A stretch of 53,805 bases of DNA from an uncultured Clostridium sp. (lineage in GTDB: Bacteria; Bacillota; Clostridia; Lachnospirales; Lachnospiraceae), in NCBI GenBank assembly GCA_946553025.1, contig CAMNRM010000035.1:1-53805 (forward strand), in the 5' to 3' direction. A program made the translations under genes and the position numbers. The notes below the pieces were generated by a model. That model was not told the origin of the DNA and ran no database searches. It worked only from the letters and a program-made list of their open reading frames with translations. Shown here in pieces: positions 21,821 through 53,611 of this stretch; position 1 is the stretch's first letter, and every line of letters starts with the position of its first letter.

Positions 21821-22780
21821 ATGGCTACAAAAAAAACAAACAAAACTTCTCATGTCATGAATCTTCTAACGAACGGAACCCCTCCGGAAAACGGTGATCC
21901 GGCAGAAACTTCTGCAAATGCGGCTTCTTCGGATTCCGCTGCCGGCAGCCAGGAGAAAAAAGGCGATGCTTCGTCCCACGCAGCAAGTCCGAAAAAAGTA
22001 ACTGTAGTGGACGAAGCCAGTCAGAATGACCGCCTTTCCCAGGAGATCTTTAATAAATTATCCGAAGAACTGGAAGAAGAAACAAAGGCAGAACCGGAAG
22101 CAATTTCCGAACCGGCTCCAGCACCGGCTCCGGCTCCTGAACCTGCACCGACTCCAGCTCCCGAACCGGCTCCAGCACCCGCTCCAACTCCGGAACCGAC
22201 ACCAGAACCAACCCCAGTTCCCGAACCGACTCCAGCACCCGCTCCGGCTCCCGAACCGACTCCAGCACCCGCGCCTGCTCCGGAACCTGTTCCTGTTCCC
22301 GAACCTGCACTGGCTCCAGCACCCGCTCCAACTCCCGAACCGGCACCAGAGCCCGCTCCGGCTCCCGAACCAACCCCTGCACCATCTCCAACTCCGGAAC
22401 CAGCACCAGAACCGGCTCCGAAAAAGGAAGAACCGGTACAGTTATCAGGAAGGACAGCTCATCACGCCTTCCTTTCCAAGGGGAATGAAAGCCTGATTAG
22501 CGGTGAGTTCCGCTTTATCAATGTTATGGAACATCTGATGCTCCGCCAGGATATCAGCAGCTGTATGGATCAGTACAATGTGTGCAAATGCCCGCGCTGC
22601 ATGGCTGACGTGTGCGCCCTGGCGCTTACGGGTCTGCCGCCCAAGTACGTGGTTACCAGCAAGGATTCCCTTTCCCCGTTAATCAGCTACTATGAAAACA
22701 GGAATAAAATTACCATCCTGACCGCATTGATTAAGGCGTGCAACAAAGTTCGTGAAAATCCTCATCATCAAAGACCATAA
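21821..22780 (+). CDS. ComFB-domain protein with long proline-rich linker
   Basis: 319 residues with AAAGGAGG upstream. Residues ~1-85 are polar and disordered. Residues ~88-207 are a tandem low-complexity tract of PAPAPEP/TPAPEP units. Residues ~215-319 are a ComFB domain: FRFINVMEHLMLRQDIS, then four Cys in CKCPRCMADVCALALTGLP and PKYVVTS. Some ComFB proteins are reported to bind cyclic di-GMP. The Pro-rich tether suggests a domain held at a distance from an anchor. Pairing with the ParA ATPase 90 bases upstream suggests a joint system. Confidence 0.82.
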   Translation: MATKKTNKTSHVMNLLTNGTPPENGDPAETSANAASSDSAAGSQEKKGDASSHAASPKKVTVVDEASQNDRLSQEIFNKLSEELEEETKAEPEAISEPAPAPAPAPEPAPTPAPEPAPAPAPTPEPTPEPTPVPEPTPAPAPAPEPTPAPAPAPEPVPVPEPALAPAPAPTPEPAPEPAPAPEPTPAPSPTPEPAPEPAPKKEEPVQLSGRTAHHAFLSKGNESLISGEFRFINVMEHLMLRQDISSCMDQYNVCKCPRCMADVCALALTGLPPKYVVTSKDSLSPLISYYENRNKITILTALIKACNKVRENPHHQRP

Positions 22781-25519: not shown

Positions 25520-26452
25520 CTACGAAATCACCGTTCCGCCCTTCCCCTTAATGCTCTCTCTTGCCATCTTCAGCGAAGTAATAATCGCCTTCCGCCCCTT
25601 CCCGTTTTCCACGAAATCTATCGACGCATTTACCTTGGGCAGCATGGAGGCAAATTCAAAATGCCCCCGCTCGGCAAATTCCTTCGCCTCCTCCACGCTC
25701 ATCGCATAAATCGGCTGCTGGTCGGGCGTTCCGTAGTTTAAGGTTACATTGTCCACCTTGGTAATAATCATCAGCACATCGGCGTCTACTTCTTTAGCCA
25801 GTAATCCGCTGGCAAGGTCTTTTTCAATAATCGCACTTGCCCCTTTTAAGTCGCAGCCCTGTTCCATCACCGGAATTCCCCCGCCGCCGCAGGCAATCAC
25901 CATCTGATCGGCATCCAAAAGCGCCTTGATTGCGTCAATCTCCACGATGGCCACCGGCTTTGGCGAGGCAACAATCCGCCGAAAACCTTTCCCGGCCTCC
26001 TCGATCACATAGTTGCCCTTCTGTTCCTCCTCTGCCGCCTCCTGTGCCGTCATATAGCGTCCGATTTTCTTCACCGGCATGTAGAAGGCTTCATCGTAGG
26101 TATCCACCGTCACCTGGGTAAGCACCGTGCACACCGGCTTGTAAATCCCCCGCCGCACCAGCTCCGAGCGGATGCCGTTCTGCAAGTCATAGCCGATATA
26201 ACCCTGACTCATCGCAGAACAGACCGACATCGGAGCCTTGCTGTAGCCGTCGTGCTGTTTTCCAAACTCATTCATCGCCGTGTGGATCATCCCCACCTGC
26301 GGAGCATTGCTGTGGACAATGGCTACCTGCCAGCCCTCCTGGATAAAATCTCCAATCACCTTTGCCGTCCTTGCCACGGCAGCCTTCTGTTCGGGAAGGT
26401 TCGTCCCCAAATCATTATGTCCAAGAGCAATAACTATTCTCTTCTTTGCCAT
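25520..26452 (-). CDS. arcC: Carbamate kinase
   Basis: 310 residues from ATG 26452 (GGAGG five bases upstream; in-frame ATGs further up are poorer). Amino-acid-kinase fold with VIACGGGGIPVMEQG and IEKDLASGLLAKEVDADVLM as in carbamate kinases. The first glycine loop, usually ALGGNAL, reads ALGHNDLGT, a variant. The enzyme interconverts ATP plus carbamate and ADP plus carbamoyl phosphate, usually for ATP gain from arginine, citrulline or purine breakdown. No deiminase or transcarbamylase is adjacent. carAB lies 2 kb away. Confidence 0.92.
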   Translation of the reverse strand: MAKKRIVIALGHNDLGTNLPEQKAAVARTAKVIGDFIQEGWQVAIVHSNAPQVGMIHTAMNEFGKQHDGYSKAPMSVCSAMSQGYIGYDLQNGIRSELVRRGIYKPVCTVLTQVTVDTYDEAFYMPVKKIGRYMTAQEAAEEEQKGNYVIEEAGKGFRRIVASPKPVAIVEIDAIKALLDADQMVIACGGGGIPVMEQGCDLKGASAIIEKDLASGLLAKEVDADVLMIITKVDNVTLNYGTPDQQPIYAMSVEEAKEFAERGHFEFASMLPKVNASIDFVENGKGRKAIITSLKMARESIKGKGGTVIS

Positions 26453-26478
26453 ATTTTCCTCCATTCTGTGCACAACTC

Positions 26479-26504
26479 GTTATTGTGCACACGTTCACAG
26501 TAAC
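26479..26504. repeat. Dispersed 26-base near-palindrome, copy 5
   Basis: GTTATTGT at the left and ACAGTAAC at the right are near-perfect inverted arms around a GCACACGTTC centre. It borders the four-hairpin element on its left, just upstream of arcC. Confidence 0.7.
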
Positions 26505-26537
26505 CACAACTCGCAGCACATCCATTATATGATACCA

Positions 26538-26720
26538 GGGTCAAAAGGTCGAAAATTCGACGAAAGCTTGCTTTCAGGAGAATTTTTGAACTTGGGACCC
26601 GCCAAAAACATGAAAAAGTAGCCCGATAGGGCGGATTTTGAATGTTTTTAAGATTGCGGGAGCACGAAGTGCGGAGCAATCTGTATCTTAAGAAGCGGCA
26701 AAAGAACTTTTGACGCTTCT
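26538..26720. other. Array of four interrupted hairpins (structured element)
   Basis: Hairpin 1 (26538-26600): GGGTC/GACCC outer, AAAATTC/GAATTTT middle, GAAAGC/GCTTTC tip. Hairpin 2 (26604-26649): AAAAACAT/ATGTTTTT outer, GCCC/GGGC tip. Hairpin 3 (26651-26682): AGATTGC/GCAATCT outer, GCAC/GTGC tip. Hairpin 4 (26691-26720): AGAAGCG/CGCTTCT outer, CAAAAG/CTTTTG inner. No credible gene is present. The element is bracketed by near-palindrome copies at 26479 and 26861. Hairpin 4 recurs at 53582-53611. It could be a structured RNA or a non-autonomous mobile repeat. Confidence 0.7.
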
Positions 26721-26860
26721 ATCATTATATCTTTAGTAAAATCAAAACACAAGACAGATGAAACAATAAATCGTAAAGAAAATCCTCTGGAAAAAAAAAT
26801 CCAGCCATGCTATAATCACAGTCGTAACCCGCCCTGCTGTATTCAATATTCAACCAACAG

Positions 26861-26886
26861 GTTACGGTTCACACATTCACAGCGAC
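26861..26886. repeat. Dispersed 26-base near-palindrome, copy 2
   Basis: GTTACGGTTCACACATTCAC followed by AGCGAC. It borders the four-hairpin element on its right and lies 130 bases before the glycosyltransferase gene. Confidence 0.65.
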
Positions 26887-27017
26887 ACCAATATCTCTTA
26901 GTTAAACAAAATTCATCCCACGTTGAAGGGACTGCACTTAGAAGAATTGCATTTACAAATACACAAAGGGTTATACTATAACCACACACCATTCCAGAAA
27001 GGAGCCTGTTTTTTCTT

Positions 27018-28046
27018 ATGAAATTATTATCCATTGCCATTCCCTGTTATAACTCTGCCGCTTACATGGAAAACTGTATCCGTTCCCTTCTTGTCGGCGG
27101 CGAAGATGTGGAAATCCTGATTATCGACGACGGCTCCACAAAAGATAATACCGCCGCGATTGCCGACGAATACGAACGCCTCTACCCTTCCATCTGCCGT
27201 GCCATCCATCAGGAAAACGGCGGACACGGAGCAGCCGTGAACACCGGAATCCGGGAAGCTGCGGGAACCTTTTTTAAGGTCGTGGACAGCGACGACTGGG
27301 TCAATGAAGAGGCATTCCGGCAGATCCTTTCCGTTCTTAGCCAGTACCAGGAACCCGCATCGGACGATGAAGCGCTCGATATGCTGGTCAGCAACTTTGT
27401 TTACGAAAAACAGGGAGCGAAGCGGAAAAAAGTCATGAACTACCGCACGGCATTCCCAAAAAATCAGCTGTTTACCTGGGAGGATGTCCGTTTTTTCATG
27501 AAGGGGCAATATATTTTAATGCATTCGGTCATCTACCGCACCAGTATGCTGCGCGGCTGCGGGCTTGAACTGCCCAGACACACCTTTTATGTGGACAATA
27601 TTTTTGTCTATCATCCCCTGCCCCATGTGCGCAGGCTCTATTACCTTGATGTGAACTTTTACCGCTACTTTATCGGCCGAAACGACCAGTCCGTCAATGA
27701 GCAGGTGATGATTGGCCGCATTGACCAGCAGATTTTAGTCACGAAGCTGATGCTGGGCTATTACGATCTGGGAAAAATCCGCCCCCGAAAACTCCGCCAT
27801 TACATGATGCAGTATCTGGAAATTATGATGACCATTTCCTCGATGCTCGCCATCCGCTCGAATGATCCGGAAAACTTTAAAAAGAAAAAAGAACTGTGGC
27901 AGTATCTGCGCAAACAGAACTTCCCCCTCTATCTCCGGCTGCGCTGGGGCTTCCTGGGTCAGGGCGTCAACCTTCCCGGAAAAAGCGGGCGGAAAATTTT
28001 CAGCGTCTGCTATAAGATCACGCAGAAATTCTACGGATTTAACTAA
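27018..28046 (+). CDS. Family 2 glycosyltransferase
   Basis: 342 residues. GT-A motifs: LLSIAIPCYNSAAYMENCIR, ILIIDDGSTKDNT, QENGGHGAAVNTGIREA, and the metal-binding VVDSDDWVN. The C-terminal half is helical and basic (LRLRWGFLGQGVNLPGKSGR), probably membrane-associated. The family transfers a sugar from a nucleotide sugar to lipid, glycan or protein. The Shine-Dalgarno (AAAGGAG) is about 13 bases from the ATG, unusually far. A 27-base tandem repeat begins just after the stop codon and continues in the same frame. Confidence 0.9.
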   Translation: MKLLSIAIPCYNSAAYMENCIRSLLVGGEDVEILIIDDGSTKDNTAAIADEYERLYPSICRAIHQENGGHGAAVNTGIREAAGTFFKVVDSDDWVNEEAFRQILSVLSQYQEPASDDEALDMLVSNFVYEKQGAKRKKVMNYRTAFPKNQLFTWEDVRFFMKGQYILMHSVIYRTSMLRGCGLELPRHTFYVDNIFVYHPLPHVRRLYYLDVNFYRYFIGRNDQSVNEQVMIGRIDQQILVTKLMLGYYDLGKIRPRKLRHYMMQYLEIMMTISSMLAIRSNDPENFKKKKELWQYLRKQNFPLYLRLRWGFLGQGVNLPGKSGRKIFSVCYKITQKFYGFN

Positions 28047-53581: not shown

Positions 53582-53611
53582 AGAAGCCTCAAAAAGTCTT
53601 TTGCCGCTTCT
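53582..53611. repeat. Second copy of hairpin 4, opposite orientation
   Basis: AGAAGC (53582-53587) pairs with GCTTCT (53606-53611), with CAAAAAG/CTTTTG inside. It matches the reverse complement of hairpin 4 at 26691-26720 along nearly its whole length and again lies next to a near-palindrome copy. Confidence 0.75.

Follow-up and report, generated by a model that had tools for sequence, protein, structure and literature searches.

Structure of the element in the window

The window (here, the whole stretch of 53,805 nucleotides that was analyzed) contains, between an ORF on the minus strand (25520-26473) and another on the plus strand (27018-28046), a single 195-bp non-coding unit at 26530-26724 of the plus strand that takes in all four hairpins of the region, hairpin 4 included (Table 1). 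A sequence-only reading of this DNA had pointed to four interrupted hairpins in a gene-free stretch, and both observations hold: the ORFs that overlap or lie beside the hairpins are three of 81 to 113 codons that appear chance-like, and the minimum-energy fold of the unit gives the four hairpins together with a short closing stem (26531-26535/26683-26687). The folding energy was −76.5 kcal/mol, compared with a mean of −45.45 for shuffled sequences (z = −7.48), and 0 of 200 shuffles folded as low. The unit is bounded by imperfect terminal inverted repeats of 21 bp, which match at 18 of 21 positions in the consensus of the genome's own copies; in the window copy 17 of 21 match. The window copy aligned to model R1 over all 194 positions with a score of 198 bits, the model having been built from 38 sequences that include this copy. 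A counterpart of hairpin 4 was recognized, as judged by reading, in 11 of 29 copies from relatives. A repeat search of 26300-27100 alone gave no match.

Table 1. Features of the element in the window
Feature	Position	Strand	Basis
Complete mobile unit (MITE), Clostridiales-1 type, 195 bp	26530..26724	+	Comparison of 12 two-ended own copies; target duplications
Left target duplication, TTATA	26525..26529	.	Sequence
Right target duplication, TTATA	26725..26729	.	Sequence
Left terminal inverted repeat, TGATACCAGGGTCAAAAGGTC	26530..26550	+	Sequence
Right terminal inverted repeat, TGATAGAAGCGTCAAAAGTTC	26704..26724	-	Sequence; own consensus ends GGTC
Rfam RF01699 Clostridiales-1 RNA (hairpins 1-3 and closing stem)	26530..26688	+	130.5 bits; gathering score 48
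Hairpin 1	26538..26600	+	Minimum-energy fold
Hairpin 2	26604..26649	+	Minimum-energy fold
Hairpin 3	26651..26682	+	Minimum-energy fold
Hairpin 4, beyond the Rfam model, bearing the right terminal repeat	26691..26720	+	Minimum-energy fold
Decayed 3'-end remnant (hairpin 4) from another copy	53582..53611	-	Comparison with truncated copies in the own genome

The sequence-only reading had placed the hairpins between two near-palindromes. Copies of this 26-bp sequence, GTTACTGTTCACACGTTCACAGTAAC, are indeed present at 26479 and 26861 and beside 53611, and the window holds five in all (8871, 26479, 26861, 49067, and 53631). They were rejected as borders, however, as the inverted repeats and duplication of the element lie inside them, at 26525-26729. 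With up to 3 mismatches allowed, the genome contains the near-palindrome 194 times (0 for a reversed-pattern control). It lies within approximately 500 bp of 4 of the 14 own copies described below, on both sides only at the window copy. It is a dispersed repeat in its own right, distinct from the element.

The element contains a known RNA class

Positions 26530-26688 match the Rfam family RF01699, Clostridiales-1, over model positions 1-166 of 166 (130.5 bits, E = 1.1e-29), where the curated gathering score is 48 bits; the sequence-only reading had not recognized it as a known RNA class. The Rfam model spans hairpins 1 to 3 and the closing stem and ends before hairpin 4. Rfam assigns the family the type "Gene; sRNA." Clostridiales-1 was first described by Weinberg et al. 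in 2010 (PMC2864571); Table 1 of that paper lists it as "probably" an RNA, "probably not" cis-regulatory, and "probably not" a riboswitch, and the passages, Background, and Table 1 of the paper give it no assigned function. No statement that Clostridiales-1 is a mobile element was found in the literature searched, which was mostly without subscription journals and without bioRxiv preprints. The RNA class is already known; what appears to be new is that it is a MITE, that a fourth hairpin belongs to it, and that a likely partner can be named.

Near-identical copies with target duplications in the own genome

In the genome from which the window derives (4.87 Mb), RF01699 gave 29 matches up to an E value of 1, a loose limit at which 1 of 14 control genomes also matched, below the cut-off; 14 of the own matches scored above the cut-off. 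Twelve of these 14 copies are two-ended, with identical borders (TGATAC..AGG.TCAAAAGG on the left and CTTTTGACGCTTCTATC(A) on the right) and lengths of 194-195 bp, and the remaining two (L041 and L043) lack the right part. Similarity among the copies ends outside these borders. An exact 5-bp direct repeat stands right outside the borders in 9 of the 12 two-ended copies; of the other three, one has a 4/5 match (L032), one a 6-bp repeat, TTTGAA (L035), and one is decayed (L040).

The ten complete own copies of equal length share 96.9-99.5% identity across their 45 pairs, while the window copy is only 75.5-86.2% identical to seven copies from species of the same genus, which argues for recent bursts within species. 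Fragments of the element, either truncated 3' ends or hairpin 3 by itself, are also dispersed in the genome. One such fragment is the segment at 53582-53611, which had been reported as a reversed recurrence of hairpin 4 and is now recognized as a decayed 3'-end piece of the same element. The left flank of one own copy (L033, contig C12) contains a repeat of about 53 bp, with at least about 15 other occurrences in the own genome and at least about 15 in genome G003 of the genus.

Distribution in other Lachnospiraceae

The search of the whole genome and of related Lachnospiraceae proposed in the sequence-only reading yielded, beyond the 14 own copies, matches in 161 of 299 family genomes at E = 0.001 (130 above the cut-off) and in none of the 14 control genomes. 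Scanning GTDB contigs with a pattern gave at least 115 stretches. Of 80 titles among the matches listed, one reads only "bacterium," and the others name Lachnospiraceae, Clostridiales, Clostridia, Clostridiaceae, or individual genera, among them Muricomes, Fusicatenibacter, Hungatella, and Butyrivibrio.

The first 80 loci listed contain 84 cores; 23 were set aside, and the other 61 have a recognizable start away from the locus ends. In 16 of these 61, [AT]TCA is followed by an exact duplication, whereas 200 tag swaps averaged 0.65 such cases and never exceeded 3. Among all 115 loci listed, 33 two-ended units were found outside the own genome, with the right end placed from the hairpin-4 sequence, independently of the duplication; exact 5-bp duplications flank 23 of the 33, and 6-bp duplications flank 2. 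For the own units and those of the loci listed together, 26 of 32 exact duplications have the form TNNNA, for which the background is 10%. In three genomes (G013, G057, and G052), the three-hairpin module occurs in tandem (L297, L298, L299, L300, and L301); in the later tandem modules of L297, the first half of hairpin 1 is altered.

Element-free sites and orientation of insertions

A comparison for empty sites, also suggested by the sequence-only reading, was run against other species of the genus, using the flanks of seven own sites as queries against 11 genomes. Readable element-free sites were recovered for two of the seven insertions. At L010, which lies between two coding genes, the junction is continuous without the element in five species (G004, G005, G006, G007, and G008). 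At L035, located at a gene end, no element lies between the gene and the downstream inverted repeat in six species (G001, G002, G003, G005, G008, and G010); the duplication cannot be judged at these sites because the intervening sequence has diverged. The other five queried sites, including that of the window, gave one-sided or no alignments in the 11 genomes. At both L010 and L035, the gene upstream ends at the leading TGA of the element, which acts as its stop codon.

Orientation to neighboring genes was classified by crude ORFs for 90 of 112 copies (22 were dropped at locus ends), with relatives represented by 14 of 29 fetched loci. Across 50 sites between tandem genes, orientation was balanced (28 to 22; p = 0.48), while the own tandem sites alone favored co-orientation 7 to 1 (p = 0.07). 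The fixed orientation to the downstream gene expected of a cis-regulatory leader was not found.

Compensatory changes and mismatches in the fold

A covariance test for compensatory changes, likewise proposed at the outset, was conducted on 38 aligned units and 41 predicted pairs. Two-sided changes occurred in 23 of the 41 pairs; such cells numbered 166, compared to 58.2 in shuffled alignments (0 of 500 as high) and at most 41 when partners were slid. The cells counted depend on one another, and the same alignment supplied the structure. These data argue strongly that the fold of the body has been kept through compensatory change across Lachnospiraceae, and to that extent the earlier suggestion of a structured RNA family was borne out.

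Departures from Watson-Crick pairing were also counted. If a fold exists in DNA only, G-U and A-C mismatches are expected to be equally frequent. In 154 unique rows of 155 model matches, a few weak opposite-strand matches included, G-U exceeded A-C by 188 to 53 over all pairs and by 130 to 50 over pairs that are at least 75% Watson-Crick, an excess that is possibly inflated since the alignments were fitted to the plus-strand fold, and here too the cells depend on one another. Without a fitted model, hairpin 3 gave 21 to 9 (p = 0.043) in 60 of 93 unique candidates, 33 having been dropped for poor pairing. The preference for G-U suggests selection on RNA, with support that is moderate because the fitted rows lean to the plus strand.

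A likely partner transposase and insertion sequences with matching ends

The own genome also contains a sister element (L062; C18:55129-55292, L062:1130-1293) that has like ends but differs in its interior; its duplication is TATTA. A second sister MITE, at L243:1501-1663, likewise has like ends and a different interior, with TAGAA as its duplication. A search of 299 genomes with L062 led to a contig terminus in G085 that carries such an end and, behind it, the beginning of a transposase. Relatives of this 104-residue transposase piece were found in 17 of the 299 genomes. Two of three longer transposases (L292 and L293) contain the domains DUF772 and DDE_Tnp_1_6, and the third, shortened one (L284) contains DUF772 only. 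IS1182 is the NCBIfam family that all three match best; as their scores of 126.4, 120.7, and 60.7 bits are under its cut-off of 270, we call them IS1182-like only.

Thirteen transposase regions were fetched and 12 scanned for inverted end pairs, and plausible pairs were judged to be present in five. Three of the five have exact 5-bp duplications: L285 (1051 bp, TAATA), L289 (1865 bp, TGACA), and L292 (1862 bp, TATAA). Insertion sequences with such ends and TNNNA duplications are thus present in G329, G309, and G209, the last containing L292. Among these three, a long reading frame (538 residues) is present in L292 alone, whose end pair was preferred to another of the same score that would interrupt the frame; the frames of L285 and L289 are shortened. 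The other two plausible pairs delimit L293 (1850 bp, a frame of 544, with flanks that would suit a 6-bp repeat) and L291 in G151 (2019 bp, no duplication). L295 was left out of the plausible pairs (ends 14/20, no duplication), and the other six scanned regions had no end pairs or spurious ones.

The end of L291, TGATGTTGGGGTCAAAAG, equals the 3' end of MITEs from members of the same genus, such as L006, over 18 bases, and the end of L284 in G072, where the left end alone was found (TGATTTAAGCGTCAAAAGGTC), differs from the own consensus 3' end at 2 of 21 positions. Genomes with at least 9 Clostridiales-1 matches, 9 being the number scored per genome, made up 10 of 17 transposase genomes and 43 of 282 others (p = 1e-4), on the assumption that both draws of 299 comprise the same genomes, as their handles suggest. 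Mere presence of Clostridiales-1 was unlinked to the transposase (11/17 versus 150/282; p = 0.46).

The own genome yielded no IS1182-like transposase; of the 11 genomes of the genus, G002 alone has a trace of one, a relic of 50 residues preceded by an intact end. The own genome has 44 exact end-like places, and the sole inward-facing pair 600-6000 bp apart was read as two MITE copies (C11:44048/48384), which indicates that this genome has no autonomous copy. End pairs 230-6000 bp apart in the fetched loci likewise included no convincing autonomous copy. DDE_Tnp_1 (PF01609) transposases were rejected as the partner, as 20 loci in the 11 genus genomes were judged to have no convincing ends. As the MITE and the insertion sequences have only their ends in common, the MITE is not a simple deletion derivative of them. 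IS1272 is described in PMC5678879 as using an inverted-repeat-replacing mechanism, which differs from the 5-bp duplications of the window element.

Interpretation and alternatives

We consider it very probable that the window element is a MITE moved in trans by an IS1182-like DDE transposase, with its fold kept, probably as RNA. The identification as a MITE is based on target duplications, element-free sites in sister species, dispersed near-identical copies with terminal repeats, insertion sequences with like ends, and a copy number that goes with the transposase. We infer that an IS1182-like transposase moved these copies. In the proposed mechanism, the element codes for nothing, and a transposase resembling the IS1182 family would recognize ends of about 18-21 bp (TGAT.....G.GTCAAAAG) and insert the element into AT-rich TNNNA sites, with duplication of 5 (sometimes 6) bp. 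The body consists of three hairpins closed by a short stem, corresponding to Clostridiales-1 RNA, plus the terminal hairpin 4, and its fold was kept by compensatory changes during radiation through Lachnospiraceae. The composite mobile repeat with reusable parts envisaged in the sequence-only reading agrees with the duplicated targets, the sites that lack the element, the insertion sequences that match it, the truncated pieces, and the modules in tandem.

It is most likely as RNA, upon transcription of the element, that the fold matters, given the compensatory changes and the mismatches that favor G-U on one strand. We would guess that an RNA fold either helps the host to tolerate insertions or benefits the element in trans. 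The broader proposal, which we hold tentatively and at somewhat under even confidence, is that Clostridiales-1 is a selfish structured RNA, namely, a protein-less transposon that IS1182-like transposases move, whose body is kept as folded RNA throughout a bacterial family, and whose RNA serves the element. If true, such an RNA may make insertions tolerable or act in trans on the host or the transposase. A MITE whose hairpins matter as DNA alone, as cruciforms or single-stranded hairpins in transposition or replication and with no RNA function, would fit the overlap of the arms of hairpins 1 and 4 with the terminal repeats as well as the balanced orientation to tandem genes; since a DNA-only fold should prefer neither strand, the G-U counts, far above those of A-C in all three comparisons, speak against this account, and we regard it as rather unlikely.

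Two further explanations would give the RNA a role in the host. A cis-acting 5' leader regulating downstream genes might be read from the co-orientation at the own tandem sites, but the bias disappears over all 50 tandem sites, and we consider a leader very improbable. Least probable of all is an ordinary host small-RNA gene family multiplied by duplication; although such a family would agree with the Rfam type, the compensatory changes, and the 2010 table (PMC2864571; probably RNA, probably not cis-regulatory), it is contradicted by the element-free sites in sister species and runs counter to the target duplications, the sharp common ends that take in hairpin 4, and the matching insertion sequences.

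Compared to Clostridiales-1 as catalogued, the window element has the same hairpins 1 to 3 and closing stem, above the curated cut-off, while the moving unit adds hairpin 4 and acts like a transposon, for which "sRNA gene" is not a fitting type. A family typed as a small-RNA gene, with a match in more than half of the family genomes sampled, thus appears to be the body of a mobile element that has spread among gut bacteria, and its annotation as an RNA gene would need revision. With a likely partner transposase and its ends now named, both mobilization by the transposase and the need for the fold as RNA versus DNA become testable.

Bacterial MITEs are short and non-coding, with terminal inverted repeats, a target duplication, many copies, and ends in common with an insertion sequence elsewhere. 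The window element has these general features, with its like-ended autonomous element in other genera and not in the own genome; it differs in a body that is conserved family-wide with compensatory changes and in a three-hairpin module that is in tandem in some genomes. BOX elements of Streptococcus pneumoniae are modular dispersed repeats with structured parts that can be reiterated, and the likeness, by description only and to repeats of another bacterial group, is in modularity.

Two minor observations concern the window. A candidate outward-facing hybrid promoter, TCGACC-17-TATAAT, can be read at the left end of the element, where promoter-like sites number 4 against 1.6 expected. Elsewhere, an ORF at 21821-22780 contains a long repetitive stretch rich in proline, alanine, and glutamate.
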